A stretch of 64,000 nucleotides of DNA from NCBI GenBank assembly GCA_900450595.1, contig UGGS01000001.1, positions 806,001-870,000 of the forward strand. Reading direction: 5' to 3'. Each line of letters opens with the position of its first letter. Within the stretch, counting starts at the first letter, position 1. Below are positions 16,435-60,994 of this stretch, piece after piece. Origin of the DNA: [Flavobacterium] thermophilum (lineage in GTDB: Bacteria; Bacillota; Bacilli; Bacillales; Anoxybacillaceae). The notes beneath the pieces are model-generated. The model saw only the letters and a list, made by a program, of their open reading frames with translations, made no database searches and had not been told where the DNA came from. A program made the translations under genes and the position numbers.

Positions 16435-16799
16435 CACATTCTGATATTTTTTGATTATACGGATGACAGCTGCGCCTGTTAGGGTGCCTTTTATCAAGAG
16501 TGGGCGTTCGACATGTTCATTCCGGATGGGGATCAGAAGGGAAGTCCATATCGCCGTGAATGTTCAAAGATCCAGGCCGATCGCTGGCATTTGGCAAGTG
16601 AACAATGATAGGCAAAAGAGGCTTACATCGTGATAAGATCGCCTCTTTGGCGCTGCTGTTTCGGTGTATACATATTTTTTTATAAAACTATGTTCTAAAT
16701 AATCAAAGGAACAAATAGAAAAATTTTAAATAATGAGATAAAATAAAACTGCTCTACATCATTGAGAAGGGAGAAGGTCAAACGCATAGGGGGGGAACG
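16435..16799. other. Gene-free interval with a Ter-like site
   Basis: No convincing gene. It holds an 8-bp inverted repeat AAAGAGGC/GCCTCTTT (16615-16648), an AT-rich tract from 16660, the Ter-like motif at 16688-16705, and the ribosome site of the next gene. Confidence 0.6.
16676..16705 (+). other. Candidate replication terminator (Ter) site, plus orientation
   Basis: CTATGTTCTAAATAATCA at 16688-16705 is a close relative of the RTP B-site core of B. subtilis Ter sites (CTATGTACTAAAT...TTC, from memory). The same 18-mer occurs on the minus strand at 60965 and with one change at 59419. In this orientation a leftward-moving fork would meet the B site first and be arrested. The 12 bases on the A side are T/A-rich and match the published A site poorly. 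Confidence 0.65.
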
Positions 16800-17057
16800 A
16801 TGAGAATCATCGTGTGCATCCTGCTTGCCTGCCAGACGTTCGTCATCTACTATTGGATCAGCGATTGGCGTCAGCTTGTCACCCCGGTGGGTCTTTGCAT
16901 GTGGGTGGGCGGAATCGCAGTCGGCCTTGTTGTTCTTCGGACGGGGCGGTACCTATCGCCAAGATGGCGGAGGGCGCTGAAGATGACGACGGCGGGAGTC
17001 ATCTTGCTTGCTGTGATGTCGCTGATCATTGAATGGGCGGTTTGTTCGATGCCGTAG
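16800..17057 (+). CDS. Small hypothetical membrane protein
   Basis: 85 residues, not recognised. Three hydrophobic segments (about 2-20, 28-46 and 61-82) separated by short charged loops, the second loop being RTGRYLSPRWRRALK. Good AGGGGGG ribosome site before the ATG. It stands alone between a long gene-free interval and convergent queT. The overall layout is that of many small bacillar membrane proteins without assigned function. Confidence 0.65.
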   Translation: MRIIVCILLACQTFVIYYWISDWRQLVTPVGLCMWVGGIAVGLVVLRTGRYLSPRWRRALKMTTAGVILLAVMSLIIEWAVCSMP

Positions 17058-17169
17058 TCAAAATAGATGTTGAAAGCCCGTACGATTGATCAAGAACTTC
17101 CCGTGTGGGCGTACGGGGAATGCGCCTTTAGAATGAAGCGAACCCCTTGCCTAAGGCGAAAGAGGGCTG

Positions 17170-17673
17170 CTAACGGCTTCGATGGGCGGAATCGAACATC
17201 TTCGGCGCCAAGCGGCGGCCAACCGCATACATGATCGGTGCGCCGATCGCCATGACAACAAACTCGCCAATGGCCGTCGTCAGCCATGTGAGCCAAAACG
17301 GAAAGCCGAGCGCGAGCTTTAGTTCAAAGGCGATGATGGCCATGGTCACGGTAAACGACAACGTATTGATCGCCATACGCGCCCAAATGTTCTCGACATA
17401 ACGCATGGAAACAATCGTGATGAGAAGCGCCAGCACCGACTGGCCGACGCCGAATACAAGATCATACGCGACAATCGGCGAGAAAAACAAATTGGCCAAA
17501 AAGACGCCGAGCACGATGCCCACGGCGTATGTTCGGCGGAATACGACTAGGTGGTTTAACATTTCTGAGACGCGAAACTGAATGTTCGTAAAGCCAAACG
17601 GCTGGATGAACGCCGTCACGGCGATATATACGGCGGCGATCAAACCGTTTGTCGCCATCATTCGAACGTTCAT
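17170..17673 (-). CDS. queT: QueT family queuosine-precursor transporter
   Basis: 167 residues with five to six hydrophobic segments, an ECF-type substrate-binding S component. The N-terminus reads ATNGLIAAVYIAVTAFIQP, and the conserved block FTNIQFRVSEMLNHLV is typical of QueT. Partners would be the general ECF ATPases and EcfT encoded elsewhere. The start at 17673 has an AGGAGAGAA ribosome site. Only 72 bases separate it from divergent chrA, and I see no preQ1 riboswitch there, although many queT genes have one. Confidence 0.87.
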   Translation of the reverse strand: MNVRMMATNGLIAAVYIAVTAFIQPFGFTNIQFRVSEMLNHLVVFRRTYAVGIVLGVFLANLFFSPIVAYDLVFGVGQSVLALLITIVSMRYVENIWARMAINTLSFTVTMAIIAFELKLALGFPFWLTWLTTAIGEFVVMAIGAPIMYAVGRRLAPKMFDSAHRSR

Positions 17674-17745
17674 GGTATTCTCTCCTCTCGTGCATGATGA
17701 TATGATTGTAGCATGACACTCTCGTGAACGAAAGGAGCGGGATCC

Positions 17746-18951
17746 ATGGCTGCAAAGAAACAAGCAGCAGACCGATATGGTTCCGTCTGGGAGGTCGCAA
17801 TTACGGCGCTTCGCCTCGGCTTGACGTCATTTGGCGGACCGGTGGCCCATCTTGGCTATTTTTACGAAGAATACGTCAAACGAAAGAAATGGATTGACGA
17901 GAAAACGTATGCCGATTTGGTCGCTTTATGCCAATTTCTCCCTGGTCCGGCAAGCAGCCAGGTCGGCATCGGCATCGGACTGATGCGCGCCGGCGTCTGG
18001 GGGGCGTTGGCAGCGTGGCTTGGGTTTACGTTGCCGTCGGCGGTTGCGCTTAGTTTGGTTGCCGTCTGGCTGCAACATGCTTCTTTGGGAGAGGCGGGCT
18101 GGATGCACGGCTTGCTGTTGGCGGCTGTCGCGGTCGTCGCTCAGGCGGTATGGGAGATGGCGCGCAAATTCGCCTCTAGCCGCCTCGAGGCAACGGTCGC
18201 CATCATAGCGGCGGCCGCCGTGCTTCTTGCGCCGGGCGCGTGGAGCCAAGTCGCCGTCATCGCCGCAGCGGGGGGCATTGGCGCTGTTGGATTGCGAAAA
18301 AACGTCGCACCTTCTTCGTCTGCGGCAGGCATCCCGCCTTCCATTCGTCGTTCCACCGGTTTGACGTTGCTTTCATTGTTTGCCGTGTTGCTTGTTGCGC
18401 TGCCGCTCATTCGCACTTGGATCCATTCACCACTTTGGGCGCTGTTTGACAGCTTTTACCGCGCCGGGGCGCTCGTGTTTGGCGGCGGGCATGTCGTGCT
18501 GCCGCTTTTGGAGGCGGAAGTGGTGCCGCAAGGGTGGGTCACCGCCAATCAGTTTTTAGCCGGCTACAGCGCCGCGCAAGCTGTTCCGGGGCCGCTGTTT
18601 ACGTTTGCTGCGTACATCGGAATGGCTGCGTTCGGTTGGAAAGGCACGCTCGTGGCTACGGCAGCGATTTTTCTTCCGTCCTTTTTGCTTGTGCTCGGCG
18701 CTTTTCCGTTTTGGCACTGGCTTCGCCATCAGCCGCGCTTCCAAGCGGCGCTTGCCGGCATTAACGCCGCTGTCGTCGGGATTTTGCTCGCGGCGCTGTA
18801 TGATCCGATTTGGACAAAAGCGGTGAACGAGCTGGCCGATTTCGCGTTTGTCCTCGTCGCCTTTCTTTTGCTTGCCGTTTGGAAGTGGCCGGCGTGGGCG
18901 GTCGTCCTTGTTTCATTCGTCGGCGGAGGGCTGCGCGCTTGGCTCGGCTGA
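17746..18951 (+). CDS. chrA: Chromate transporter ChrA (two-domain)
   Basis: 401 residues, CHR family in the long form made of two homologous halves. The N-terminal half has FGGPVAHLGYFYEEYV and LCQFLPGPASSQVGIGIG; the C-terminal half repeats the pattern as FGGGHVVLPLLEAEVV and GYSAAQAVPGPLFTFAAYIG. About ten to twelve membrane segments. Such proteins export chromate and related oxyanions across the membrane. Ribosome site AAAGGAGCGGG. Divergent from queT. Confidence 0.93.
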   Translation: MAAKKQAADRYGSVWEVAITALRLGLTSFGGPVAHLGYFYEEYVKRKKWIDEKTYADLVALCQFLPGPASSQVGIGIGLMRAGVWGALAAWLGFTLPSAVALSLVAVWLQHASLGEAGWMHGLLLAAVAVVAQAVWEMARKFASSRLEATVAIIAAAAVLLAPGAWSQVAVIAAAGGIGAVGLRKNVAPSSSAAGIPPSIRRSTGLTLLSLFAVLLVALPLIRTWIHSPLWALFDSFYRAGALVFGGGHVVLPLLEAEVVPQGWVTANQFLAGYSAAQAVPGPLFTFAAYIGMAAFGWKGTLVATAAIFLPSFLLVLGAFPFWHWLRHQPRFQAALAGINAAVVGILLAALYDPIWTKAVNELADFAFVLVAFLLLAVWKWPAWAVVLVSFVGGGLRAWLG

Positions 18952-19265
18952 TCGCGCCAAACACCATTCGTTACCGTCCAATGGACAACGTCGCTTTCTG
19001 CTTTGCCCCTGCAATGGACGGCAAATGCAAATAGACGTATAGTTCGATCAGCAGCAGCGCCAGCCAAGAAAAATGCTATGAGAAAATGGATGGTTACAAT
19101 AGCAGGCGGGAGGTCAAACCAGAAAACAAGGGTGTCGAGTGCGATCTGCGCCGCAAGCTGGCTTTTTTTCGCAAATGAACTACAGGACTGGCCAAGTTGG
19201 TTTAGTTTTCCGTGAACCGCTCATACTAACAACAGCATGATCGACTTGAAAGGAAGTGGATCAAA
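18952..19265. other. Gene-free interval before yhgE
   Basis: No reading frame with a ribosome site or recognisable product. It holds the upstream region and the AAAGGA ribosome site of the yhgE-like gene. I see no clear promoter or terminator. Confidence 0.5.
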
Positions 19266-21383: not shown

Positions 21384-21523
21384 AACATTTGCTCTATTTT
21401 CTTTTGGAAGCATCTGCTACAATAGGGACGAGAGCGTTGCTTCCTGTTCAATGACCCCGTAGGATGCATGCTTCTCGTTTTGCGAGATGAGAGAACCAAT
21501 GGCGGGGAAAAGGGGAGAGAATT

Positions 21524-38811: not shown

Positions 38812-39642
38812 ACTCACAAGCCTATCACGATAACGATTCCGCCTGTGTTACTGGACAAAAAGATTAAGCAGATTGAAATCATTCCTAAGCATCATGCCAG
38901 GTTCTTTGAGATTCAGTACAAATATGAAATGCCTGAAGATCAAAGAGAATTAAATGACCAAAAAGCACTGGCAATTGATTTAGGATTAAACAATTTTGCC
39001 ACTTGTGTCACATCAGACGGCAGATCATTCATCATTGATGGGCGGAGATTAAAAAGTATCAATCAATGGTTTAACAAAGAAAATGCCAGACTTCAAAGCA
39101 TAAAAGATAAGCAAAAAATCAAAGGCACCACTCGTAAACAGGCTTTGCTTGCTATGAATCGCAATAATAAAGTGAATGATTATATCAACAAGACTTGCCG
39201 TTACATCATTAACTACTGTATTGAAAATCAAATTGGCAAACTTGTCATTGGCTATGCGGAAACATGGCAACGCAATATGAATCTAGGAAAAAAGACAAAT
39301 CAAAACTTTGTCAATATTCCTCTCGGTAACATAAAAGAAAAACTAGAATATCTTTGTAAATTTTACGGCATTGAATTCTTGAAACAGGAAGAATCATATA
39401 CGTCTCAAGCCAGCTTTTTTGACGGCGATGAGATTCCTGAATATAATGCCGACAATCCAAAAGAATATAAGTTCAGCGGCAAACGTATTAAGCGCGGCTT
39501 GTATCGAACAAAGTCTGGCAAACTAATTAATGCTGATGTCAATGGCGCATTAAACATCTTAAAGAAAAGTAAAGCTGTAGACCTGAGTGTCTTATGCTCT
39601 AGCGGCGAAGTGGACACGCCTCAAAGAATAAGGATTGCTTGA
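38812..39642 (+). pseudogene. TnpB-type nuclease, 5' truncated
   Basis: About 275 codons in frame with no start. The frame opens after a TGA at 38794 and reads PITITIPPVLLDKKIKQIEI, a segment normally about 130 residues into this TnpB lineage, so the N-terminal domain is gone. The RuvC acids remain: Asp in AIDLGLNNFAT, Glu in VIGYAETWQ, Asp in NADVNGALNIL. In place of the zinc finger it has SYTSQASFFDGDEIPEY and FSGKRIKRGLYRTKSG, as in the cysteine-poor lineage. Much lower GC than the neighbours. It is a different lineage from the complete tnpB at 31511. Confidence 0.82.
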
Positions 39643-39664
39643 AGCAGTCAAACTTCTTTGGAAG

Positions 39665-39710
39665 CCCCCACTTCAAATTTTCGCTAGAAAATTAAGTGGG
39701 GGTAGTTCAT
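39665..39710 (+). mobile_element. Right end of the truncated IS605-group element
   Basis: CCCCCACTT / AAGTGGGGG closes a smaller inner stem (AAATTTTC / GAAAATT), ending GGTAGTTCAT. The end resembles GAGGTTCATC of the intact element, so the right end and presumptive guide site survive although the left end is lost. Confidence 0.65.
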
Positions 39711-39819
39711 ATATTAAAAAATAACTGAATTCTAAATCAATTGAAACATAAATTAATAGTGGCATACCTTGGACTGGTATAGCAACACAAATAAAAATAA
39801 TAAAAGGTATCTTTTATTA

Positions 39820-39853
39820 TTTACTATCAAATATAAATTTAGTATAATTCTAA
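39820..39853 (+). promoter_or_regulatory. katG promoter with PerR-like box
   Basis: TTTACT (39820), 17 bases, TATAAT (39843-39848). The -10 lies inside TTAGTATAATTCTAA (39839-39853), which fits the PerR consensus TTATAATNATTATAA in its palindromic outer bases. A PerR box over the -10 of a peroxidase gene is the classic arrangement. Confidence 0.6.
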
Positions 39854-39860
39854 TGTACAA

Positions 39861-42164
<2,304 letters not shown>

Positions 42165-42169
42165 CCAAC

Positions 42170-42210
42170 AAAAAAGCAGCTTGTCCGTTTAAGGGGCAAG
42201 CTGCTTTTTT
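42170..42210 (+). terminator. katG terminator
   Basis: AAAAAGCAGCTTG / CAAGCTGCTTTTTT hairpin, 13-base loop, T6, a few bases after the stop. Confidence 0.92.
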
Positions 42211-42375
42211 ATATTCATATCCAGGGATTCTTTCTTAGACTTGTTGTGGATCAAAAGGGAAAGATTCGTTGAAAGGAAACTAGAGCGCTCAATTACCTGT
42301 TTTTATGCTTATGTGTCAGAGATTTGCAGAAAGAAAAGAGCCTTCGGAGAATCTTTGAGAATAGTATGTATTTTA

Positions 42376-42404
42376 TTGACAAATTATGTGTTTTTCAGTA
42401 TGAT
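42376..42404 (+). promoter_or_regulatory. Near-consensus promoter of the RNA/DUF3800 module
   Basis: TTGACA (42376-42381), 17 bases, TATGAT (42399-42404). Expected start near 42411, giving a leader of about 250 bases before the protein gene. Confidence 0.8.
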
Positions 42405-42479
42405 TGCGGCAGAATCAAATCAAGATCAAATAGCATAGGGAAAGGGACAGGACAAACGTTCACGTCAAAATAAAAAGAC

Positions 42480-42569
42480 AGCTCAGCCCTGCCCAACGGT
42501 GGCGGGGAAAAGCTATCCTTCCGTACGTTGAGATGTTATCAGCCCTGCCCAACGGTGGCGGGGAAAACA
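42480..42569 (+). ncRNA. Two tandem structured RNA hairpins upstream of a DUF3800-like gene
   Basis: A 29-base sequence (starting TCAGCCCTGCC, then CAACGGT, then GGCGGGGAAAA) occurs identically at 42483-42511 and 42539-42567. Each copy folds as a 7-bp stem CCCTGCC/GGCGGGG with one G-U pair and a seven-base loop. On the opposite strand the wobble would be a C-A mismatch, so the plus-strand RNA is the structured one. Outer bases can extend the stem differently in each copy (AGCT/AGCT in the first, TGTT/AACA in the second), weak evidence of conserved pairing. Conserved RNA motifs named DUF3800-I to -XI have been described next to DUF3800 genes; which one this matches is not known. Confidence 0.65.
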
Positions 42570-42636
42570 ACACCTTCTTTTTATGATTGTAAGGTATAAA
42601 CGTGTTTTAGTCAACACAAAATGAATTTATGTATGG

Positions 42637-42656
42637 AAAGTAAAGGAGTTTACTTT
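42637..42656 (+). promoter_or_regulatory. Ribosome site in the loop of an 8-bp hairpin
   Basis: AAAGTAAA-GGAG-TTTACTTT: a perfect 8-bp stem presenting GGAG as the loop, 12 bases before the ATG of the DUF3800-like gene. A second small stem (GTGTT/AACAC, 42602-42617) lies upstream. Suggests translational control. Confidence 0.6.
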
Positions 42657-42660
42657 AAAT

Positions 42661-43617
42661 ATGCACTACTTAATCTATTTTGATGAGAGCAATAAACTCG
42701 ACCAGTTTAACGCTGACTATTCTTACTATGGGGCTTACGGAGGAACCGATGCCGCAATGGCAAGGGTTGTTAAGCAAGTTCGAAACATCTTTAAACAGTG
42801 TAATTCTTTTAGTGAACTTCATTTTCGAGAGTATACGAAAGACAACCTTGTCAAGAAATATTTTCAAACTCTTCATACGGTTATTAATGAGAATGTACAG
42901 ATTAATATTCTAACCGTTAATAATAGGGATGCTTTGTATGCGGCACAGAAAATCGGATTAACGGCGACTGAACTAAGAAACTTATTCTATATCAAAATAC
43001 CGGAAAGATTATTTTATGGAATGACTCGGGATTTATCAAGTCAAGAATCTGGAACGATTAAGGTGAAGATTAAGGTAGACCAGAATGATGAGTATGATAA
43101 GCTTTTTCTTGAAACAAAAATCATTGAACAGATGAACGCACATTCGGCTTATCGCAATAAAAATTACCGCGTTGTTAATGTCCTTTCTCAAAACTCTGTT
43201 AAATCAATACCTTTGCAAATAGTGGATACATTTATGGGGATAGTTATATTTTTGTTGGAACAAAATTATCTTGAATTGTCCAATACTGCCAAGATAAAAA
43301 GTGATTTAATATATCGGTTCCTTATTGAAGGAAATAACTTAATGAAGTTTCAACAGCAAATCAAACTATATAAATGGACGGGACACGAAGAACTCACCTT
43401 TGTCAATATCAGCGACTATGTATCACCTTTTATGGCTTATAAAGCAGCATATGATTCACAAGAAATAATACGAATTCAAAAGATCATGGTTGAGAATCCA
43501 GCGATGCCTCTAAAAGAGCTTAGACTCAAGGCAGGCTATCCGAATACCATGAAGAACACACTGATCGGATACAAGGATCAGATTGAAGGACGGGGTAGGA
43601 ATTATTCTATTTTATGA
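42661..43617 (+). CDS. DUF3800-like protein (predicted RNase H-fold)
   Basis: 318 residues. The N-terminus MHYLIYFDESNKLDQFN has the family hallmark, a strand ending in (F/I)DES with the first acidic residue. A later acidic stretch KIKVDQNDEYDKLFLETK and the C-terminal QIVDTFMGIVIFL match the second and third conserved acids (QxADxxAG block). The last 45 residues form a helix-turn-helix-like tail (LRLKAGYPNTMKNTLIG). DUF3800 proteins are thought to have an RNase H-like nuclease fold; biochemical role is unclear. AT-rich against GC-rich neighbours, so recently acquired. It is expressed behind two structured RNA repeats from one strong promoter. Confidence 0.8.
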   Translation: MHYLIYFDESNKLDQFNADYSYYGAYGGTDAAMARVVKQVRNIFKQCNSFSELHFREYTKDNLVKKYFQTLHTVINENVQINILTVNNRDALYAAQKIGLTATELRNLFYIKIPERLFYGMTRDLSSQESGTIKVKIKVDQNDEYDKLFLETKIIEQMNAHSAYRNKNYRVVNVLSQNSVKSIPLQIVDTFMGIVIFLLEQNYLELSNTAKIKSDLIYRFLIEGNNLMKFQQQIKLYKWTGHEELTFVNISDYVSPFMAYKAAYDSQEIIRIQKIMVENPAMPLKELRLKAGYPNTMKNTLIGYKDQIEGRGRNYSIL

Positions 43618-43766
43618 TTCTCTTAGTTAGTTTTTTTTATCAATAAATATGAATCTTTGACACACAAAGAAAAGAAGGAGTTTTCCCATTCGGGCCATTT
43701 ATGAAACCCGAGTTCGGCAGTCATGGCCGGCTGCATCTGTAAAATAGATCTGGAAAGGAGCGCCCG

Positions 43767-44192
43767 ATGAGGATACGCAAATGTGCTAGAGCAGTGATCA
43801 TCAATGAGCGAAACGAAATTCTTCTTCAGCAATTTGAATTTCGGGATGTAGTAGGGAACAAAGTGTTATGGGTTACTCCAGGAGGGGGCATTGAAGAAAA
43901 CGAGACCCCAGCTGAAGCTTTAAAAAGGGAATTATACGAAGAACTAGGCATAGTGGTTGATCTTCTCGGTGGCCCCATATTCCAACTGGATGTATGGATT
44001 GAAGGAAAACAAGGTTCTTTTATTAGCCGGGAAATTTATTATCACGTTACGATCCAATCCGATACGGTGTTGTCTATCGAACATATGACAAAGAACGAAA
44101 AAGACACACTGAAAGGACTCAAATGGTGGAGCAAAGACGAATTGCAGAAAATCGACAACTTTGCGCCGCGTGAAATATTGAACTACATATAG
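43767..44192 (+). CDS. NUDIX hydrolase
   Basis: 141 residues. Complete Nudix box GGGIEENETPAEALKRELYEELGI with the metal-binding REL(Y)EE, preceded by the substrate strand ARAVIINERNEILLQQFEF. Ends KWWSKDELQKI, common in MutT/ADP-ribose-type members. It hydrolyses a nucleoside diphosphate linked to another group, substrate not inferable. Ribosome site AAAGGAG. Stands alone downstream of the acquired DUF3800 module. Confidence 0.92.
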   Translation: MRIRKCARAVIINERNEILLQQFEFRDVVGNKVLWVTPGGGIEENETPAEALKRELYEELGIVVDLLGGPIFQLDVWIEGKQGSFISREIYYHVTIQSDTVLSIEHMTKNEKDTLKGLKWWSKDELQKIDNFAPREILNYI

Positions 44193-44802
<610 letters not shown>

Positions 44803-44997
44803 TTATGCAATGTCGGTGTGGCGATAGCGGACGCCTTTATACCGAACGCGAACCGGCATGCCTTTCTCTTGTTTGTACCTAATGAGCAGCCGTCGAGCTT
44901 TTGAAAAGGCTTCCATCATCCCAGATGCCGGAATCGCCTCATCCCAGACAGACGTTCTTCCTTGGTCTGTGTAAAAGGAAAAGACGTACTGTTTCAC
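44803..44997 (-). CDS. Small hypothetical basic protein
   Basis: 64 residues: YVFSFYTDQGRTSVWDEAIP, then an amphipathic helix FSKARRLLIRYKQEKGM and a basic end VRVRYKGVRYRHTDIA. Not recognised. The start is the GTG at 44997, seven bases from GGGAGGTGA. An earlier GTG (45006) overlaps that site. It has its own terminator and a TATAAT about 30 bases upstream, so a functional monocistronic gene is likely. Confidence 0.6.
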   Translation of the reverse strand: MKQYVFSFYTDQGRTSVWDEAIPASGMMEAFSKARRLLIRYKQEKGMPVRVRYKGVRYRHTDIA

Positions 44998-45239
44998 CCT
45001 CTTCACCTCCCTATGTACTTATTATAATCAGAGACTGTTTTTCCTAAACACAAAAACTGTTACAATTATGTTAACATTTTCTGTGCCGCGGCACTATGAA
45101 AAAATGGCTGGCGGAATGGGCCGCCGTGTCACGTTCTTTTTTTGATCTATGGAGCTCCTTTCAGTATGTTCGTTGTCACCGCCGGAATCAGCCTGCCGCC
45201 ATGCTGCAAAGCCAGCGGTCTCTCTCTTGTCGCCGCAAA

Positions 45240-45267
45240 GAAAACCGGCACCTTATTCGATGCCGGT
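45240..45267 (-). terminator. Terminator of the DHH-nuclease gene
   Basis: AACCGGCA / TGCCGGTT hairpin with a 10-base loop and TTTTCTTT on the minus strand. It partly overlaps the last codons. Confidence 0.8.
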
Positions 45268-46491
45268 TTGATGTTTGTATTGTTTGACAGCCGACGGATA
45301 GTCGGCTTGGATGGCGTCTTTGTCCCGCCCGAGCCGCACGCTTAAAAACTCTAGCACAGCGGCGTCGTAGGCGAGCCCTGCCGCAAACTGCCGCTTTAAC
45401 CATCGCTCGCCTGCGGCTTCATCAGGAAAGGTGCGAGCCTCTCCCCCGTCGGCATACCATGTCCATCCCTGTTCCGTCTGGCGGCTTAACCACCACTGGC
45501 CTTGATGATTCGTCCAAAACACGCCTTCTGCCTCTTCCCGCTTGTTCAGTTGGTTTTGTTCCGCATCGCCATAAACAGGCGCAAGCGGGAACGTCTCGAT
45601 GACAAACAGCGGAAAGGTCGTGTCATCCACAAAACAACCCGATGCCTTCGGGTGGCCGCCGCCGCCAAACTGCTTCGCGAATTCGGCGACGTTGACGTCG
45701 TCATGGATGGTGCGAAACCCGATATGTTTTGTCCCGAGATTGACTAGGGCGATCAAATCTAGGTGCGGATGCCGTTTGGATAAGGCGTTGCCAAGCTCCG
45801 ACAGATGGCGTTCAGCGAACACGACGCCGATGCAGTAATCGCCGATCCAGCGCTGAACGAGCTGCTTTTGCTTCTGTCGGATGTAGCGTTGAATTTTCTT
45901 TTCTTCCATATCCAGAAGCAACTCTTCCGTCTCCGTCAAGGCGAACGCCTCCCCGGAGGCGAGCCGCTCGCTCATCGTCTCCCAAAAGCCGTCGAGCCCG
46001 AGAATGGTGAACAAATCGTTGAGCCGCTTCGCTTGCAAATTCCCATTTTCTTCCCATTCCCACGTGTCGTACTGGCGGACGAGCTCGACAAACGCATCCA
46101 ACGTTTCGTTAGGCGCCAGTTTTCCTTCGCGGACGAGGTAATCGTAAAAGAGCGAGGTTGCACATGTTTTTTTGCCGTCTTCCCGTTCGGGCGCGACCCA
46201 TCCCCATGGATAGCTGTTGAAATGAAGCGCGGTCACGTGGTGGTCGATGACTTGCACATGGCCGCCGCGCTTGGCCCGCTCGGCGAGCTGCTGCTCCACC
46301 TCCTGGCCGACGGCTAGGTCGGTGATAAACAGCATGGCGCCATTCGCTTCCTCGCTTTGCAAGAACTGGCTGACCCGTTCATCCAAGTTCCGGTACGAGC
46401 AAAACGAAATGTTCACCTCGGCAAACGCCAGCTTGGCGAGCAATCCGCAGCCGATGCCATCTAAATCGCTGTCGGTAAATAGTTTGATCAT
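45253..46491 (-). CDS. DHH-family phosphoesterase (NrnB/YngD-like)
   Basis: 412 residues. DHH motifs: LFTDSDLDGIGCG, ITDLAVGQ, QVIDHHVTALH, and ETLDAFVELVRQYDTW. The DHHA1 RNA-binding end contains AKQFGGGGHPKASGC. Resembles B. subtilis NrnB (YngD), which degrades short oligonucleotides (nanoRNA) from the 5' or 3' end with Mn. The start at 46491 follows AAAGGATGGG; 13 further upstream in-frame codons run into the previous gene. It lies 17 bases after the vWA gene and is probably co-transcribed. Confidence 0.88.
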   Translation of the reverse strand: MIKLFTDSDLDGIGCGLLAKLAFAEVNISFCSYRNLDERVSQFLQSEEANGAMLFITDLAVGQEVEQQLAERAKRGGHVQVIDHHVTALHFNSYPWGWVAPEREDGKKTCATSLFYDYLVREGKLAPNETLDAFVELVRQYDTWEWEENGNLQAKRLNDLFTILGLDGFWETMSERLASGEAFALTETEELLLDMEEKKIQRYIRQKQKQLVQRWIGDYCIGVVFAERHLSELGNALSKRHPHLDLIALVNLGTKHIGFRTIHDDVNVAEFAKQFGGGGHPKASGCFVDDTTFPLFVIETFPLAPVYGDAEQNQLNKREEAEGVFWTNHQGQWWLSRQTEQGWTWYADGGEARTFPDEAAGERWLKRQFAAGLAYDAAVLEFLSVRLGRDKDAIQADYPSAVKQYKHQTGIE

Positions 46492-46508
46492 CGATTCCCA
46501 TCCTTTTG

Positions 46509-48419
46509 TTACAAGCTTTTTTGCAGCCACGTTTTCAAAAGCGGAAGCAGTCGGTCGGGCAGCTCGCTCACTTGTGGAACGAAAACGCGAAAGCGGCCGT
46601 AAATGTTTTCAATCGTCCGCCGCGTCGATTCGTCATCCGCCCCGCGGCCTAAAAAAAGGTTGACAACCTCAATGCCGCGCCTCCGCGCTTCGGCCACCGC
46701 TTCATGCGTGTCGATAATGCCGTTTTGTTCATAGCCATAGGCGGCCGGTTCCCCGTCAGAAAAGATGAGCAACACTTTTTGCATTTCCGGGCGACGGAGA
46801 AGTTGCTCAGTCATCCAGCGGATCGCCAGCCCGTCGCGGTTGTCTTCGTGGGGCTCAAGCTGCATGATCGCCGGGCCGCTTGATGGGTCCAACGACTCGC
46901 GGAACGAAACAGCCACTTGCAAGTAATTCGGCTGTCTGGCCGCGGTTGCCTCGTTGGCGTCTTCCCAAAACCCGACGATCTGGTGCGGCACACGCAACGT
47001 TTGAAGCACGTTGTGGCAGAGAACGAGCCCCGTTTTCGTTTCATCCATTTTATCGTGCATCGACGCCGAGCAGTCGACGAGCAGGCCGAACGCTGCGTTG
47101 AACCGCCGCGCTGGCTCGCCTTTTTTGTAAAACAGGCGCGGCCGCTCGTCGGTGAAAAACGGTATGAGCTGTTTGCGCAGCCGTCCGGCCGGCAAGTTCG
47201 TGCGCCACGTGCTGCGTTGGTGTTCGAGCCATTGCTCCATCACGCGCACAAGCCGCTTTCGGTATGGCGCGGCCGCCGCCTGTTTGCTGCGGTATTCGTT
47301 CCGTTCGTCACGACTTGGCGGCGGGGAAGAAAAAACAATGATGGCTGCCTGGCGGTTCGCTTCCCCATATGGAGCACCGCCTCCGGCTGGTCGATGTTCC
47401 TGGGATGCGGCCGCCGCCTCGAGGCCGTATTCGTTTCGCTTCGCCGGCCGGGACGTTCCTTGGACAATGGCGAGCGCCTGGTCGCCATCGTCCCCCGGCC
47501 TCGCCCCGTCGCCAAGCATGCCAGTGCGGGTGCCGCGTTTCAACTCAAAGCGGAGAAAATTCCCATTCGGCCGGCTTGTTTCCCGGTGCCACGTCGACAG
47601 CACTTCCTGGTGCGCTTTGCCGTTTGGCGGATTTTCCGCTGCATCGCGGTTTTCCAACGGATCGACCCGCTTCAAATCGCGAACCGTCATCTCCGATTCA
47701 TCGTCCCCGTCATCGACAAATGGAAGCGAGGTGTAAGCGTTCACCATGTCACCGGCAAGCGCCTCTTCCATCAATGCGACGATGGCTAACGCCCAGCGGG
47801 CCGTATCCGCGGTGGACATCGCGTCAAACCATTGCGGCCACAGCGCGTCAAGGCGCGCCTGCACCGTTTCATCCGCCATCGGAGCGAGCGGAACGTCATC
47901 AAGCGGCGAGTCGGCGGTCAGCCGCAAATACATCGCCGCCAAAAATTGATCGGCGGCGGCGCCGCGGGTTTGGTTTGCCTGCCATTGCTGGGTGAAGTAG
48001 CGACGGTAAAGGCGGCGGCGCGTGCGAAACCAACGTTTCACCCCGGGCCGTTCCCGCTCGCAGAGAGCCTCAACACGAAGATCCTCAGCCAACGAAAACA
48101 GCTGTTTCGCCAATTTCGGCCATGGGTGCGCTTCGGCTGCTTGCCGAAATGCGCGGACCGCCGCTAGGTCCGTATGCCGCCGCGTGCCGATGACGCGCAA
48201 GGCGACATCGCTTTTCATTGCCGTTTCTTTCTCCTTTGGCGGATACACATCCCAAAACTGACTGACGTACACCGTTGGCTTAACCGGATGCATCCCGGAA
48301 TGGGCGGCGAACTCGACCGTCATGTCAGGACGGCGGGCGAGCGTTCGGGCGAGATCGGCGAGCTGCATCACCAAAAACGGATCAATCGGCCGATCGTTGA
48401 ACATCATAAACCGTTCCAT
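46509..48419 (-). CDS. vWA-domain protein, MoxR partner
   Basis: 636 residues. The N-terminal half is helical and shared with NorD/CobT-like proteins (RRHTDLAAVRAFRQAAEAHPW, LAEDLRVEALCERERPG). A low-complexity Gly/Ala/Pro middle (about 300-390) contains two related RNEY...AAAA units. The C-terminal vWA domain has the metal-site motif LLVDCSASMHDK and IFSDGEPAAYG. With the neighbouring MoxR ATPase it forms a chaperone pair that inserts metals or activates another complex. The NorD resemblance would fit an NO-reductase, but none is seen in the window. Confidence 0.87.
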   Translation of the reverse strand: MERFMMFNDRPIDPFLVMQLADLARTLARRPDMTVEFAAHSGMHPVKPTVYVSQFWDVYPPKEKETAMKSDVALRVIGTRRHTDLAAVRAFRQAAEAHPWPKLAKQLFSLAEDLRVEALCERERPGVKRWFRTRRRLYRRYFTQQWQANQTRGAAADQFLAAMYLRLTADSPLDDVPLAPMADETVQARLDALWPQWFDAMSTADTARWALAIVALMEEALAGDMVNAYTSLPFVDDGDDESEMTVRDLKRVDPLENRDAAENPPNGKAHQEVLSTWHRETSRPNGNFLRFELKRGTRTGMLGDGARPGDDGDQALAIVQGTSRPAKRNEYGLEAAAASQEHRPAGGGAPYGEANRQAAIIVFSSPPPSRDERNEYRSKQAAAAPYRKRLVRVMEQWLEHQRSTWRTNLPAGRLRKQLIPFFTDERPRLFYKKGEPARRFNAAFGLLVDCSASMHDKMDETKTGLVLCHNVLQTLRVPHQIVGFWEDANEATAARQPNYLQVAVSFRESLDPSSGPAIMQLEPHEDNRDGLAIRWMTEQLLRRPEMQKVLLIFSDGEPAAYGYEQNGIIDTHEAVAEARRRGIEVVNLFLGRGADDESTRRTIENIYGRFRVFVPQVSELPDRLLPLLKTWLQKSL

Positions 48420-48428
48420 GGCCTCCTC

Positions 48429-49304
48429 CTACTCGTCAAACCATGTTTCCGCGATATTGCGCACCGCCGCCCGCTCCCGTTCATCGTCGAGCTTGTCGAT
48501 GATGCTTCGTTCAATGGCGCGCAGCGGCGGGATATGCACCGCCAGATCGCACGCATCGAGCAAGGCGCGTACGGAAGCCACTTCTTCTGCCACTTGCCCG
48601 TTTCGCACCTGCGCCAGCAAGTCGGCTGACAAGGCGACGAAACGGTTGATCAACGCATCGTCTGTTAATGTAGTTTGTGCCATGATGACCGATTTTAACG
48701 TCTCCCCCTGCACATATGGGACATCGATGACGACGAAGCGGTTTTTTAACGCTTCATTGAGCGGCACGGTGCCGATATAACCTTCGTTGATCGCCGCAAT
48801 GACGCCAAACGTCGGCTTCGCCTCGACGACCTCGCCAGTGAGCGGATTGGTGAGGCGGCGCCGATAGTCAAGCACGCTGTTTAAGATTGGCAGCGTCTCA
48901 GGTTTGGCCATATTGATTTCATCAATGTATAGCAAATGCCCCTTCTCCATCGCCCGGATGACCGGGCCGGGCACATACTCGATCACCGCTTGGCCGTCGC
49001 GGTGCACGATCGTTTTAAACCCAAGCAGCGCCTCGGCATCAAGGTCCACAGAGCAGTTGATGCTGTGCATCGGCTGCCCGAACAAGGCGGACAACGTTTC
49101 CGCCAGCCGCGTTTTCCCCGATCCGGTTGGACCTTTTAACAGTACGTTTTTTCCAAGCGCCAGGGCGATGGCCGCATCGTGCACGATCGCTCCGTCTTCC
49201 GCCGTATACCCGTCGGAGCCGATCAGCGCGTGATCTGGATCATGGCGGAATAACGCTTTTCGTGTTTCCATTTCCCTTATGACAACCTGTGGCCATGTCA
49301 ACAT
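48429..49304 (-). CDS. MoxR-family AAA ATPase
   Basis: 291 residues. Walker [15 protein letters not shown], Walker [15 protein letters not shown], sensor 1 [12 protein letters not shown], Arg finger region [15 protein letters not shown]. It acts with the vWA protein encoded nine bases downstream. The annotated start is the ATG at 49304; an alternative at 49271 ([11 protein letters not shown]) is too close to its AAGGGA, and the true start is not certain. Confidence 0.88.
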
Positions 49305-49408
49305 CCTACGTCTTCCTCTCTGTTGCCGTGTCCTTCTCCCATTCTACTAAATCGTTCGGTGGGATGCAAAACAAACAGAATTCACCATAAAAATGTTATG
49401 TAAATTCA

Positions 49409-49432
49409 TACAAAAAAAGAGGCGCCCTCAAC
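49409..49432 (-). terminator. rtp terminator (weak)
   Basis: GAGG-GCG-CCTC mini-hairpin followed by TTTTTTTG on the minus strand at the end of rtp. Short stem, so only moderate support. Confidence 0.4.
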
Positions 49433-49802
49433 TGAAGTTGTCCTCAATCGCCTTGCGAATGAGCGCCGCACACCGGTCCAGCTCCGCTTTCAGTTGGCGT
49501 TTGTACAATTTCGCCTTTTCCTGCCCCCCTTCCGCGAAGCGGTAGTACACAACTTCTTGGTACTTCATGCCTTCTTTTTTCTGCTTGACTTGCTTTAAAA
49601 TGCCGTCTTCAATCAAATCGTGGAGCGCTTTGTACACTTCGGAATGGTTCGGCCGGTAGCCAAACGGTTTAAACTCTTGGCGCAGCACATCAAGCAGCTT
49701 CAGTCCATACAACCGTTCTTGTTCCGTTAACGTGATTAAATACAGTTTTAAAAACGCACGTTGTTTTAACAGAAAACCGCTGGGCGTCCGTTTTTCTCCC
49801 AT
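49428..49802 (-). CDS. rtp: Replication termination protein
   Basis: 124 residues, homologous over its whole length to B. subtilis RTP: PSGFLLKQRAFLKLYLITL, TEQERLYGLKLLDVLRQEF, RPNHSEVYKALHDLIEDGIL, LYKRQLKAELDRCAALI. The winged helix (about 15-90) binds DNA, the long C-terminal helix forms the dimer. Two dimers on a Ter site stop one replication fork arriving from one side. The start is the ATG with AAGGAGGG nine bases upstream; TATAAT lies about 70 bases further up. Its presence marks the terminus region; candidate Ter sites are at 16688, 59419 and 60965. Confidence 0.95.
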   Translation of the reverse strand: MGEKRTPSGFLLKQRAFLKLYLITLTEQERLYGLKLLDVLRQEFKPFGYRPNHSEVYKALHDLIEDGILKQVKQKKEGMKYQEVVYYRFAEGGQEKAKLYKRQLKAELDRCAALIRKAIEDNFS

Positions 49803-49911
49803 AGGCTTTTTCCCTCCTTCCCTACGGATGAAATTTCGCTCTTTGGGCGGCCAAATCCTGCTTATCTTCATTATACCATGCGGGAAAGGAAAAATCCTCT
49901 CCCGCTTGGGT

Positions 49912-50814
<903 letters not shown>

Positions 50815-50981
50815 GTTGTTCTCTCCCTTTTCTTTCCGTCGTTTGGTTTTCATCATACAAAAAAATCATCCGCTTGCCAACTGCACGGTCCATCTTTTTT
50901 GCAAGAAAAGCCGCCTTTGCCCCTGCGGCGGAAGGGGCGATATTCAAAAGAACATCTCCCCTCGAGTAAAATGGCAGTGAA

Positions 50982-52781
50982 AAAGGGGCTGACCCAAAAG
51001 TCCGCCAAAAAGCGGACTTTTGGAGTCAGCCCTCTCTGGTTTTTGTATATTTTACCAAACGGAACAAAATTCCGACTCTGTTCTCCCCCTCATTTACGCC
51101 ACCAAGGACAATTGCTTGTCCCTAGCGGCTTTTTTGAGAAGATTGTGGGCAGCACAAACCAGCCCCCATTCGATGGAAACTTTTTGGAGGCCTCGCAGGA
51201 CAAAGCGACGAAACCCGCGATTTTGTTTGATTTGCCCAAATACACTCTCAATGTCGGTTTGGCGTTGGCGGTATCGGGCTTGCCCTTCTTCACTCTCCAA
51301 CCGTTCGCGGGCTTTCTGTTTTTGTTCATGATAGACGGGGTTCCATTGCGTGGTTCGTCCATACTTGGAAGTCGTGCAGGCCGAACGGAACGGACATCCT
51401 TCGCATTCATGGCATTGGTAGTGTCGGGTGACCGAGGTGTATCCTGATTCCGTGGTCTGTTTCGAAGTTCCGGTGCGAACCAGCTTTTTCCCATTGGCGC
51501 AAATCCAAACGTCTTCTTCTTCCACATAGGTCCAATTCTGCTGATGATGCGGATTTTTCTTGACCTTGCGCGTGTTCTCCTTCTCATACGTATGGTACTT
51601 GATCAAGGCCGATATGTGCTTCTCTTCCAGCTTCACGTAGTTCTCTTCCGAGCCATAAGCCGCGTCAGCGATCAAACGTTCGGGTTCCACGCCGTACTTC
51701 TCTCGAACGGTCTCCAAATGCGGGAGAAGACAACGAGTGTCGCCCGGCCTCTGATGAAGGGAATACCCCAAAATAAATTGGCCGGAAGAACCCACCTGTA
51801 CGTTATAGGCCGGCTTGAGCTGGCCGTTTCGCATGTGATCCTCCTTCAACCGCATGAAGGTGGCATCCACATCGGTCTTGGAATAGCTGTTGCGATCCCC
51901 GCATACATGGAGTTGGTGTTCATACTTTTCACTGCGGGGCAAGTAGTCCTCCTTCATCTTCTTGATGGCCTTCTTCAACGGTTGGTTGTCCGGCTCGGCC
52001 TCCAACCGTTTTTCCCACTCCTCGGTTTTCTTTCGGATTTCTTCTGACGTAAAGGCCGGCGAAGGGTCGATGTCTTCCGCCTTTTCTTCTTCCACGATCG
52101 CCTCGATCTGGGCAATCAGCCGATCGACATTGGCTTGGAGTTTCTCCTGGTACTTCTCAGCCGATTTGCGCCAAACGAAGGTGTACCGGTTGGCATTCGC
52201 TTCAATTTTCGTTCCATCCACAAAATAATCTTCCATCTTGACATAGCCGTCGGCCACGAGCAGCGTGATCATTTCCCGGAACAGGTCGTCAATCAGGTCT
52301 TTCATCCGCTCCGAACGAAACCGATTGATGGAGCGGAAGTCCGGCTTTTGAAATCCACTTAGCCACATGAGGGGAAGGTGGACTTCGAGCTGCCGTGCAA
52401 TCTCACGGCCATGATACATTTTTTGGGTGTAAGCGTAAAGGAGAATTTTGGTCATCATTTTCGGATGATAGGCGGAGGCGCCCCCTCCTTTGTAGTAAGC
52501 AAGAAACGTCTCCATCGGGATGCGTTCAACCATCTCATGAACCACGTGGGCCATGTTATCCCGTGGAATGAGATCGGCGATGTTGCTTGGCAAAGAGAGG
52601 TTGTCCATAGTATACTCTTTAAAGGAAATATGATCATGTTTCATAAAAGAATCGCCCTTCTTTCGGTGGTAGTGGTTTTGGTGACTCTATTCTACCAGAA
52701 AAAAGGGCGATTCTTCTATATTTGAGGCAAAAAAGTGGGGGCTGATCCCAAAACGCATTCGCGTTTTGGGTCAGCCCCTTT
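50982..52781. mobile_element. IS1182-family insertion sequence
   Basis: About 1.8 kb bounded by an 18-bp perfect terminal inverted repeat AAAGGGGCTGACCCAAAA (50982-50999 and 52764-52781). Each end also forms its own long hairpin (for example AAAAGTCCGC / GCGGACTTTT on the left and AAAACGC / GCGTTTT on the right), which would fold back transcripts entering the element. One intact transposase is inside. It lies 13 bases past the hmp stop. No clear target duplication is seen. Confidence 0.88.
51094..52644 (-). CDS. IS1182-family transposase
   Basis: 516 residues, apparently intact. N-terminal DUF772-type helix-turn-helix region (HPKMMTKILLYAYTQKMYHG, FRSINRFRSERMKD). DDE catalytic domain: first Asp in YVKMEDYFVDGTKIEA, second in ERLIADAAYGSEENY, Glu in RQRQTDIESVFGQIKQNRGFRRF. 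A zinc-finger-like HECEGCPFRSAC lies before the last motif. Internal coiled-coil insertion at about 170-240. The reading frame has no lesions, so the element may be active. Confidence 0.93.
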   Translation of the reverse strand: MKHDHISFKEYTMDNLSLPSNIADLIPRDNMAHVVHEMVERIPMETFLAYYKGGGASAYHPKMMTKILLYAYTQKMYHGREIARQLEVHLPLMWLSGFQKPDFRSINRFRSERMKDLIDDLFREMITLLVADGYVKMEDYFVDGTKIEANANRYTFVWRKSAEKYQEKLQANVDRLIAQIEAIVEEEKAEDIDPSPAFTSEEIRKKTEEWEKRLEAEPDNQPLKKAIKKMKEDYLPRSEKYEHQLHVCGDRNSYSKTDVDATFMRLKEDHMRNGQLKPAYNVQVGSSGQFILGYSLHQRPGDTRCLLPHLETVREKYGVEPERLIADAAYGSEENYVKLEEKHISALIKYHTYEKENTRKVKKNPHHQQNWTYVEEEDVWICANGKKLVRTGTSKQTTESGYTSVTRHYQCHECEGCPFRSACTTSKYGRTTQWNPVYHEQKQKARERLESEEGQARYRQRQTDIESVFGQIKQNRGFRRFVLRGLQKVSIEWGLVCAAHNLLKKAARDKQLSLVA

Positions 52782-55866: not shown

Positions 55867-55874
55867 CCGTTAAA

Positions 55875-55912
55875 AAACCGCTGTCCCTCGCATTTAGGGA
55901 CAGCGGTTTCGA
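55875..55912 (+). terminator. speE terminator
   Basis: AAACCGCTGTCCC / GGGACAGCGGTTT, 13-bp stem, nine-base loop, shared by the convergent gene's end 57 bases further on. Confidence 0.85.
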
Positions 55913-55968
55913 TTTGTCTGGAAAACACACGTTGAATGTTCTTGAGTCAACCTGCATTGGTTGGCTGC

Positions 55969-57162: not shown

Positions 57163-57233
57163 CGTTCTCCCCTTCTTTTTTCCAGGATGCCTCTATTGTA
57201 CCGGTTTTGCATTGATGAGGAAATGAAAATGCA

Positions 57234-58733: not shown

Positions 58734-58855
58734 CACTGCTCCCCCTTTCCGCAATCAGCCTATTCTCAATACAGAGTATGTATCCTTTTGACGATTGGTC
58801 CAGAAAAAACAACAATCCGCCGGGTGGGCGGATCGTTCAAACAATCTAAAGAGGA

Positions 58856-59299
58856 TTATACATTTTTGGGCGGGTTGCACGGCGCGGCTTGTTCAGTGGA
58901 AACAAGGTACTCCGCCAGCCGCGCCCGCAGCTCGTCCGGGAGCGGTTCGCTTGTTTGGGTATGGAAGTTAAAATGGACGACGACCGCCTCTCCGAGGGCA
59001 ATGAGCGTACCTGTTTCCTCCTCGACGATGCGATGGATGCATTGAAAGCTTTTGTTGCCAATGCGGGAGACATTCGTTTCCACCCGCAACCGCCGCCCGA
59101 AAAACGCTTGGCGAATAAAGTCGCACTTCGTAGACGCCAAAACAAAGTGCCATTCGTCCGTCCGTCCGCCGTAGCTCAGCTCATCGAACAAACGGGTGCG
59201 CGCTTCTTCCAAATAAATAAAATAGCTGATGTTGCTTAAATGTCCGAGCGCGTCTGTTTCACAAAAACGCGGATTGACCGTAATCGTGTGCGTTTTCAT
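58856..59299 (-). CDS. Acyl-CoA thioesterase (4HBT/YbgC family)
   Basis: 147 residues, single hot-dog domain. VNPRFCETDALGHLSNISYFIYLEEARTRLFDEL has the catalytic acid region ETDALGH(L/V)SN; RVETNVSRIGNKSFQCIHRI follows. It hydrolyses acyl-CoA esters. The start is ATG 59299 behind GGGGAGAGG; the upstream in-frame region is leader. Its promoter carries a degenerate copy of the TetR palindrome seen at 6703 and 24090, suggesting shared control. Confidence 0.88.
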   Translation of the reverse strand: MKTHTITVNPRFCETDALGHLSNISYFIYLEEARTRLFDELSYGGRTDEWHFVLASTKCDFIRQAFFGRRLRVETNVSRIGNKSFQCIHRIVEEETGTLIALGEAVVVHFNFHTQTSEPLPDELRARLAEYLVSTEQAAPCNPPKNV

Positions 59300-59343
59300 T
59301 CGTGTTCCCTCTCCCCTTTTTGACGGCAGACACAGCAGTGTGT

Positions 59344-59399
59344 CTACCAACTAGTCAGTATGTTGTTTTTATCATAGCTTGATTCGCTTATGGATGCAA
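59344..59399 (-). promoter_or_regulatory. Thioesterase promoter with degenerate palindrome
   Basis: On the minus strand TTGCAT (59399-59394), 17 bases, TATGAT (59376-59371), then at 59344-59361 a plus-strand CTACCAACTAGTCAGTAT, 13 of 18 bases equal to ATACCAACCGGTTGGTAT and placed like the two perfect copies. It may be a weaker site for the same TetR protein or a site of a relative. Confidence 0.55.
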
Positions 59400-59418
59400 C
59401 TGTTTTGTTTTTGATATT

Positions 59419-59448
59419 TGATGATTTAGAACATAGTTTAGATAGAGG
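59419..59448 (-). other. Candidate Ter site, minus orientation
   Basis: Minus-strand CTATGTTCTAAATCATCA at 59436-59419, 17 of 18 bases equal to the motif at 16688. Orientation would arrest a rightward fork. Lies between the thioesterase promoter and the end of the antiporter gene. Confidence 0.65.
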
Positions 59449-59482
59449 TGAGGAGCAGGGAGAGCGAAGCGTTCGCTTCTCC

Positions 59483-60895
59483 TCACCCGGCCCAAAGCGG
59501 AAGCAGCACGTACCCGGCAAGCGACAGCCCGGCGCCAATCAAGGAAATGCGCAGTTTGTATTTCGCATAGTTCATCAAGTCCATATCCATGATGGCGGCT
59601 GTCGTGATGGTCGTATCGCCAAGCGGCGAGGCAAACGCGCCGAACGTTCCGCTCGCAAACACCGCGCCGACCGTCATCTCAAGCGGCGCTCCAGTCGCGT
59701 GCGCGAGCGTGACGCCAAGCGGCATGAAAATGCCCCATGTCCCCCACGAGGACCCGATAAAATACGCCAAAAACGATCCGGCCAAAAACACTGCCGCGGG
59801 CACAAACGTCCCGGGAAGCCATGTCCCAAACGTCGAAGCCACGTAAGCGGTAAAGCCGAGCTCCCCCGCCACCGCGGAGACGGCCCAAACGAGAACGAGC
59901 ATGCCGATCGGCGCCATCAACTCGTTGCCCCCCGCGAAAAAGTGGTAAATCAACTCCGACAGCGACTGCCTGCGCCATACATAAAACCCCATCGAGAGAA
60001 GAAGGGTCACAAACAGCGCCAACAGCATCGCCCATGTTGCATCCGCTTGCGAAAACGCTTCTAGCCAGCCGTGCGCCCCGCGCCGCCGACCATCATAGGC
60101 AAAAAAAGCGAACGTCAGCCCGAGCAGCAACGCCAGCGGGACAAAAAGGTGAAGCGGCTCTCCTGTGACAAGGGACAATTCTTTGCGCAGCCCGAGGCCG
60201 TGCAGTTCGTTTGTTTTCTCCTCTCCTTTTTTCGCCCGCGGCTTGCCGATGCGGATGTTCAGCATCGTCGTCAGCAGCCCGATTATCAGCGCGATAATGG
60301 CAAACAGATTGTACGGCAAGCTGCGCAAAAAAACGCCATACGCCGGTTCATGAATATCGTTTTGCGCCAGCGCCGCCGCTACAACAGACGTCATAAAGCC
60401 GACAAACGCCGTTGCCGCCGGCAGAAGCACGATGATCGGTTCAGTGGACACATCGATGATGTACGCCATCCGGCGCCGGTCGATGCGAAACTGGCGAAGC
60501 ACCGCCTTCATCACCGGACCGAGGAGCATAATGCGGAACATCGGCATAAAAAACGTCACCGGCACCGTCAACCAAACGAACAACAAAAGCCTGCGCTTCG
60601 TGCGGATGCGCCCAGACAGCTTCTCGACAAACCCTTTGATCCCACCGGTGATTTGCATCATGCCGACAAGCGAGCCGAACAAGTACAAAAACGCCGCCAC
60701 CTTCATGTGTTCAACATCGCTGAGCGAATGAACAATGGCGGACAGCGCCCGCTCGATGCCGCCAACAAGCGACCGCTCAAGGCAAAACGCCCCGACAAGC
60801 AGCCCGGCTATAAGACCGGGCAAAATTTCTTTCAGCCAAATGGCGAGCGGAATGATCAAAAGAAAAGGCAATAGCGACCACCATGTTCCTTCCAC
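59483..60895 (-). CDS. NhaC-family Na+/H+ antiporter
   Basis: 470 residues, about eleven membrane segments. MQITGGIKGFVEKLSGRIRTKRRLLLFVWLTVPVTFFMP and the family block YFIGSSWGTWGIFMPLGVTLAHATG, then FASGTFGAFASPLGDTTITTAAIM, are typical of NhaC-type antiporters. It exchanges sodium for protons or a substrate such as malate/lactate in the MleN branch. I place the start at GTG 60895, eight bases from AAAGGGGGA, because the longer frame starting at 60940 has no ribosome site. Confidence 0.88.
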   Translation of the reverse strand: MEGTWWSLLPFLLIIPLAIWLKEILPGLIAGLLVGAFCLERSLVGGIERALSAIVHSLSDVEHMKVAAFLYLFGSLVGMMQITGGIKGFVEKLSGRIRTKRRLLLFVWLTVPVTFFMPMFRIMLLGPVMKAVLRQFRIDRRRMAYIIDVSTEPIIVLLPAATAFVGFMTSVVAAALAQNDIHEPAYGVFLRSLPYNLFAIIALIIGLLTTMLNIRIGKPRAKKGEEKTNELHGLGLRKELSLVTGEPLHLFVPLALLLGLTFAFFAYDGRRRGAHGWLEAFSQADATWAMLLALFVTLLLSMGFYVWRRQSLSELIYHFFAGGNELMAPIGMLVLVWAVSAVAGELGFTAYVASTFGTWLPGTFVPAAVFLAGSFLAYFIGSSWGTWGIFMPLGVTLAHATGAPLEMTVGAVFASGTFGAFASPLGDTTITTAAIMDMDLMNYAKYKLRISLIGAGLSLAGYVLLPLWAG

Positions 60896-60964
60896 ACCGG
60901 CATCCCCCTTTGCGATCTTGCTGTTAACAAGGATAGCCATAATGCTGTTCGTTTATGATTTTGT

Positions 60965-60994
60965 TGATTATTTAGAACATAGTTTTGTTTATTA
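60965..60994 (-). other. Candidate Ter site, minus orientation
   Basis: Minus-strand CTATGTTCTAAATAATCA at 60982-60965, identical over 18 bases to 16688-16705. The A-side 12 bases read TAATAAACAAAA, the best of the three against the B. subtilis A-site pattern. Orientation would arrest a rightward fork. Confidence 0.68.

Follow-up and report, generated by a model that had tools for sequence, protein, structure and literature searches.

The 64,000-nucleotide stretch of DNA analyzed here, referred to as the window (positions 806001 to 870000 of contig C1 in the [Flavobacterium] thermophilum genome, 3.73 Mb in 5 contigs), very probably represents the replication terminus of a Geobacillus chromosome, equipped with a fork trap formed by the replication terminator protein (RTP) and its Ter sites. 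The gene rtp and the recombination site dif were both found in the window, with Ter-like sites of opposite orientation on either side of them, as follows (window positions):

16688-16705, plus strand: Ter-like B-site 18-mer (exact match), left trap boundary and predicted stop for leftward forks
44286-44313, minus strand: dif, the XerCD recombination site ACTTCCTATAATTTATATTATGTTAACT, with 2 mismatches to the B. subtilis dif pattern
49428-49802, minus strand: rtp, replication terminator protein of 124 amino acids (PF02334, E = 7.8e-53)
59419-59436, minus strand: Ter-like site (1 mismatch), inner right boundary and predicted stop for rightward forks
60965-60982, minus strand: Ter-like site (exact match), second right boundary

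With up to 3 mismatches allowed, the window contained the 18-mer CTATGTTCTAAATAATCA three times, versus a chance expectation of 0.02, and three matches were obtained in 0 of 100 shuffled windows. All three sites were intergenic. An original prediction, made from the letters of this DNA without database searches, had placed the 18-mer outside genes at 16688 (plus strand), 59419 (minus strand, one change) and 60965 (minus strand), with rtp at 49428-49802 between them; our rescan recovered the same positions, and the gene matched PF02334. The dif site was located with a pattern that we take to be that of B. subtilis, for which a control pattern gave 0 matches. Given dif at 44286-44313 and a cumulative GC skew maximum at 44502, 189 bp past dif, both dif and rtp thus lie inside the 16.7-59.4 kb interval between the Ter-like sites; the distance from dif is 27.6 kb to the left site and 15.1 kb to the inner right one. 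The skew comparison had been suggested as a check by the original prediction, and its maximum fell inside the trap interval. Gene direction, judged by eye from a mechanical list of open reading frames (ORFs), agreed with the shift described there from rightward before about 26 kb to leftward after about 44 kb: long ORFs were mostly on the plus strand until about 26 kb and mostly on the minus strand beyond about 45 kb, with both directions between 26 and 44 kb. The dnaA gene was located on contig C2.

In the genome as a whole, seven matches were found at up to 3 mismatches, compared with three for a reversed control pattern. Six of these were on C1 and all six had trap polarity about dif, with plus-strand sites to its left (751208, 753964 and 822688) and minus-strand sites to its right (865419, 866965 and 1163757). 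Orientation therefore flips at dif, and the copies scattered without polarity that had been named in advance as a refuting outcome did not occur. Besides dif itself, the three C1 matches outside the window (751208, 753964 and 1163757, with 3, 2 and 2 mismatches) are features that the original prediction did not contain; these weaker sites are located 96 and 99 kb to the left of dif and 313 kb to its right. The seventh match was on C4, a 43.5-kb contig similar to known Geobacillus plasmids. A looser core with two mismatches gave 93 matches versus 66 for its control in this genome, and such matches are mostly noise.

By its sequence, the rtp gene of the window encodes a genuine RTP. The protein scored 178.2 bits against PF02334 (cut-off, 26.7), matched the B. 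subtilis RTP structures 1bm9, 1f4k and 2dqr in the PDB (all E <= 1.1e-48), and was 69% identical to B. subtilis RTP across the aligned region. Its start is an ATG at 49802, with a good ribosome-binding site (GGAAGGAGGG) just ahead; a minus-strand ORF listed at 49428-49940 is the same gene merely extended upstream.

To describe the conservation of this arrangement, we used a sample of 41 genomes from nine genera of the family, all of which carried rtp. The pattern CTATGTNCTAAATNNTCA was found at up to one mismatch in 41 of the 41 genomes (3 to 10 copies each), with a total of 234 matches versus 11 for the reversed pattern. A pattern search detected dif in 37 of the 41 genomes, and 124 of the 234 matches were located on the 32 dif-bearing contigs, which allowed their orientation to be compared: trap polarity about dif was observed for 83 of 83 exact sites and for 37 of 41 one-mismatch sites. 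A further site outside these 124 (G040:C6:68224, minus strand, right of dif) was also consistent. None of the 59 exact family sites with fetched flanks was inside an ORF of more than 120 amino acids (L129, which lacks an exact match, was excluded). These 59 sites grouped into 16 neighborhood clusters, several of them common to different genera, so the polarity counts are not independent; the left site of the window belongs to a cluster of 8 sites, and the two right-hand sites to clusters of 9 and 7. Site pairs about 1.5-1.6 kb apart recurred in many family genomes, and in the window such a pair flanks an antiporter gene.

At the level of the order, 55 of 299 genomes carried rtp (E <= 1e-20), spread over 20 of 116 genera. 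The exact motif was present in 25 of the 55 genomes with rtp and in 5 of the 244 without it (Fisher p = 1.4e-16, uncorrected for kinship; the 299-genome sets of the rtp and motif searches were taken as identical, and the genomes without rtp are mostly unlisted). Outside the family, with rtp as the center, a hand count gave 11 of 13 exact sites on rtp-bearing contigs consistent with trap polarity (two in G121, one each in G226 and G314, three in G120, one each in G176 and G149, and two in G105). The two others, in G083 and G294, were of opposite orientation. Outside the family, rtp need not be at the terminus.

The Ter code was tallied over 61 distinct exact sites (the 59 family sites and 2 plasmid sites), whose fixed letters are exact by selection. 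Position 7 was T (74%) or G (26%), position 14 was A in 87% and position 15 was A in 97% of the sites; the base directly after the 18-mer was A in 95%, and A was present at -1 and -2 in 61 of 61. The published B. subtilis consensus is KMACTAANWNNWCTATGTACYAAATNTTC, with the B half-site CTATGTACYAAATNTTC and the A half-site KMACTAANWNNW (excerpts of PMC3317982). The B half-site of the window keeps the core CTATGT-CTAAAT and differs from the published one at positions 7 and 15. Its 18-mer shares 15 of 18 letters with CTATGTACTAAATTTTCA, the site of genus g51; in that genus RTP shares 96.6-99.2% identity with its B. subtilis counterpart, and the sites have TACT with TTCA ends. The code of the window was also found in the rtp-bearing family f44 and in one of three genomes of genus g68, and near-matches were observed ahead of rtp in the two remaining g68 genomes.

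Among named genomes, 80 of 95 stretches with the exact 18-mer were listed. In these 80, records titled Priestia megaterium, Metabacillus kandeliae, Bacillus sp. SJS, Bacillus sp. PAMC26568 and Peribacillus frigoritolerans had the 18-mer two or three times each, while Priestia flexa, Metabacillus idriensis, M. iocasae and Peribacillus tepidiphilus had a single stretch each, which is little proof alone. Fourteen of the 80 came from organisms distant from Bacillaceae (among others Bacteroidota, Clostridia and a Lokiarchaeote), with one stretch per organism except for two in Marinoscillum sp. isolates, and were taken as chance. As read from these putative sites, the Ter code (T or G at position 7, A at position 15) is a variant unlike that of B. 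subtilis and common to thermophiles and mesophiles. The idea of a thermophile variant, put forward in the original prediction, was abandoned because the mesophile records, f44 and g68 use the same code. We also rejected a scheme, suggested by the first lineages compared, in which position 7 is recognized by RTP residue 59 (R going with A and K with T or G): in the further lineages, families f40 and f41 keep R59 yet their putative sites carry G at position 7. A companion scheme linking residue 55 to position 15 was dropped as well.

Binding of RTP, fork arrest and the direction of arrest are predicted here from homology to the B. subtilis system. RTP dimers would bind the B half-site CTATGT(T/G)CTAAAT(A/C)ATCA; a fork reaching its TCA end first would be arrested, and a fork from the opposite end would pass. 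The plus-strand site at 16.7 kb would then stop leftward forks and the minus-strand sites at 59.4 and 61.0 kb rightward forks. As oppositely oriented polar sites, they would cause forks to meet between them, around dif, with the outer, weaker sites as a back-up. A trap enclosing the terminus with this polarity had been proposed at the outset; its orientation is borne out by the six C1 sites, and its action on forks is predicted from homology. The description of the trap as "complete", which was also proposed, needs some qualification given the weaker outer sites and the degenerate A half-site.

Several observations weigh against this reading. The A half-site was only partly recognizable over the 61 sites, the AC of KMACTAANWNNW not being kept; the region is AT-rich, its junction is rich in A, and 84% of the sites have A at -6. 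The rtp promoter of the window's genus lacks a Ter-like site, unlike that of B. subtilis, and 30 of the 55 rtp-bearing genomes of the order lack the exact motif, as expected only if codes differ. Moreover, 4 of the 41 one-mismatch family sites were oriented the wrong way about dif. Two of these (G002:C1:2193313 and G005:C1:1137426; L143 and L144) lie within a malate:quinone oxidoreductase frame, an assignment confirmed by Pfam at G002:2193313, and are probably explained by coding conservation; the remaining pair, from G005, may be background (the control gave 11 matches in 41 genomes). Words similar to the wrong-way malate:quinone oxidoreductase sequence recurred in genus g2.

The degenerate A half-site is also what would be expected of a decaying trap, a variant compatible with the RTP-Ter reading, in which weak A half-sites give inefficient arrest and forks usually fuse freely near dif. 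The absence of a Ter-like site ahead of rtp in the window's genus (14 of 14 loci, versus 13 of 16 other family loci with one) points the same way, but the recurrence of site and polarity over nine genera implies selection, and we consider such decay rather unlikely. It seems very improbable that the 18-mer is instead the operator of a transcription regulator, its polarity merely reflecting that genes near the terminus are oriented with the leading strand. RTP does resemble PadR-like regulators (PadR score, E = 3.3e-07), at 40 of the 59 sites both flanking ORFs share the direction of the motif, and the right-hand sites of the window are directly upstream of genes. The 59 sites are nevertheless spread over 16 neighborhoods, and an operator would have no reason to flip at dif. 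In addition, according to mechanical ORF calls, 6 sites are between converging ORFs and 2 between ORFs that both oppose the motif; among the 6 converging cases only L079 and L127, from one neighborhood, appear firm, L001 and L003 being mis-called and L092 and L097 depending on short ORFs. A segregation or terminus-organization motif (KOPS/SRS- or matS-like) would share the orientation towards dif, which is typical of such motifs and known for KOPS. This explanation appears extremely unlikely for a sequence close to the B. subtilis-type Ter and associated with rtp, whose 3 to 10 copies per genome at up to one mismatch are few for a translocation guide.

Turning to the genes next to these elements, the antiporter gene between the two right-hand sites and the gene upstream of rtp are:

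49912-50856, minus strand: formyltetrahydrofolate deformylase-like gene (Formyl_trans_N and ACT domains)
59483-60940, minus strand: Na+/H+ antiporter family gene (PF03553, E = 1.6e-31)

No Ter-like site was found in the gap between the deformylase-like gene and rtp, nor was there any match (up to 3 mismatches in the 15 fixed positions) within 1.5 kb on either side of the gene at this locus (L037). Contig C5 (G000:C5:1-13515) was a 99.8% copy of the region holding dif and rtp (window positions 39255-52778), from which it differed by 2 mismatches and 19 gaps; rtp on this contig was matched in pieces only, and C5 is probably a redundant, poorly polished contig. Elsewhere, three consecutive tRNA genes were observed at 2786-3041, and an Rfam scan of the window returned these three tRNAs and nothing else.

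The region ahead of rtp was read in 30 of the 41 family genomes, one of these loci ending just before rtp. One Ter-like site was found about 100 bp ahead of rtp in 13 of the 30 loci, with CTATGTTCTAAATAAAAA in 7 of the 13, all outside the window's genus. All 4 g51 genomes examined had opposed sites ahead of rtp, as is known for TerI/TerII, and Ter-like sites stood there in 3 of 3 g68 genomes as well. A site in the rtp promoter was taken as a B. subtilis feature that does not define the trap. In another family of the order, f40, TGTGCAAAATTCA was found ahead of rtp in 10 of 10 genomes read (G118, G174, G079, G291, G248 and others; loci L262 and L278-L286). Searches of these genomes with TATGTGCAAAATTCAA at up to one mismatch gave 70 matches in 10 of 10 genomes, against 2 in all for the control. 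Forty-two of the 70 were on rtp-bearing contigs, the other 28 being on other contigs, and with rtp as the center, 41 of these 42 showed trap polarity; 9 of the 42 were within 1 kb of the gene. The putative TATGTGCAAAATTCAA sites add another divergent Ter code to that of the window. In family f41, CTATGTGCTAANAACACA was repeated ahead of rtp in some genomes; its 5 matches in 3 of 4 genomes are too few for a trap code to be claimed. The f41 loci L288 (G148), L263, L287 and L289 exhibited CTATGTGCTAA-N-AACACA-like repeats ahead of rtp, with few copies elsewhere in the genomes.

The motif was also observed on small plasmid-like contigs in at least 7 of the 41 family genomes (G000, G018, G020, G022, G026, G033 and G038), including the C4 site (G000:C4:7692; L132:7692); a base-pair Markov model predicted 0.00014 matches at up to one mismatch on 43.5 kb. 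Of 18 PLSDB records, most of which were chosen by similarity to plasmid site regions so that their share is no frequency, 6 had an exact site, 7 a site with one mismatch and 3 a site with two (L240-L243, L264-L274 and L276); 2 had no credible site within the stretch read. On Geobacillus and Parageobacillus plasmids, the site occurred in two different local contexts. In the first (pHTA426, pBSO1, pGS18 and others), it was located about 0.3 kb downstream of a gene annotated, depending on the record, as "replication protein" or "hypothetical protein", which had no Pfam match and which the predicted arresting side faces in the loci read. In the second (pDSM14590, pGeo12b, pNCI002, pLW1071, pLDW-2 and pSJEF4-2-1), it stood at the end of a leftward run of genes, which in pDSM14590 includes type IA topoisomerase, VirD4-like and MobQ relaxase genes. 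The contexts are not fully separate: several plasmids of each type have a ComEC/DUF3006 module close by, and both queries were matched by pGS18. Plasmid GC skew, confounded with gene direction, gives no origin position. The plasmid sites would most likely act as polar barriers using the host RTP.

The system of the window resembles RTP-Ter of B. subtilis in its protein (69% identity), its core CTATGT-CTAAAT, its polarity and its opposed groups of sites around dif and rtp. It differs in having T or G for A at position 7 and A for T at position 15, a weak A half-site, no opposed pair ahead of rtp in the window's genus, and innermost sites about 43 kb apart versus about 0.1 kb for TerI-TerII (excerpts of PMC13220808). 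A B. subtilis Ter site consists of A and B half-sites bound by two RTP dimers, and RTP polarity and autoregulation have been described (PMC13220808, PMC10331603); nine Ter sites are given for B. subtilis (PMC7515245). RTP has been described as limited to one subgroup among the Bacillales (PMC6549158, PMC10331603) or listed for "some bacillales" (PMC3290774). E. coli Tus-Ter likewise places inward-facing polar barriers about the terminus, a likeness to the function predicted here, with an unrelated protein and site (PMC13220808, PMC10331603). Plasmids such as R1 carry a host terminator site of the Tus-Ter type as well (PMC10331603), whereas the Geobacillus plasmid sites are RTP-type and of putative function. 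In titles and abstract openings of the open-licence literature, most subscription papers being outside this scope, we found no description of Ter sites in Geobacillus or Anoxybacillus and none of RTP-type Ter on plasmids. R6K is another plasmid with a Tus-Ter site, and RTP systems of various Bacillus species were reportedly treated by Griffiths et al. in 1998.

Taken more broadly, RTP-Ter may be a widespread, code-switching barrier system with lineage-specific Ter spellings in Bacillales, in which Geobacillus and Parageobacillus plasmids use the host code to borrow the host RTP as a polar barrier, with the site in one of the two contexts directly following a replication gene. We lean slightly towards this wider view. 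The lineage spellings were read from rtp promoters, with one new code, TATGTGCAAAATTCAA, backed by polarity. Variant Ter codes would be missed by a search with the B. subtilis consensus. A natural series of codes would help in working out how RTP reads DNA, and thermophile RTPs could be used for structural work. Variant traps would also allow ideas on the reason for fork traps to be tested, among them their possible exploitation by plasmids.

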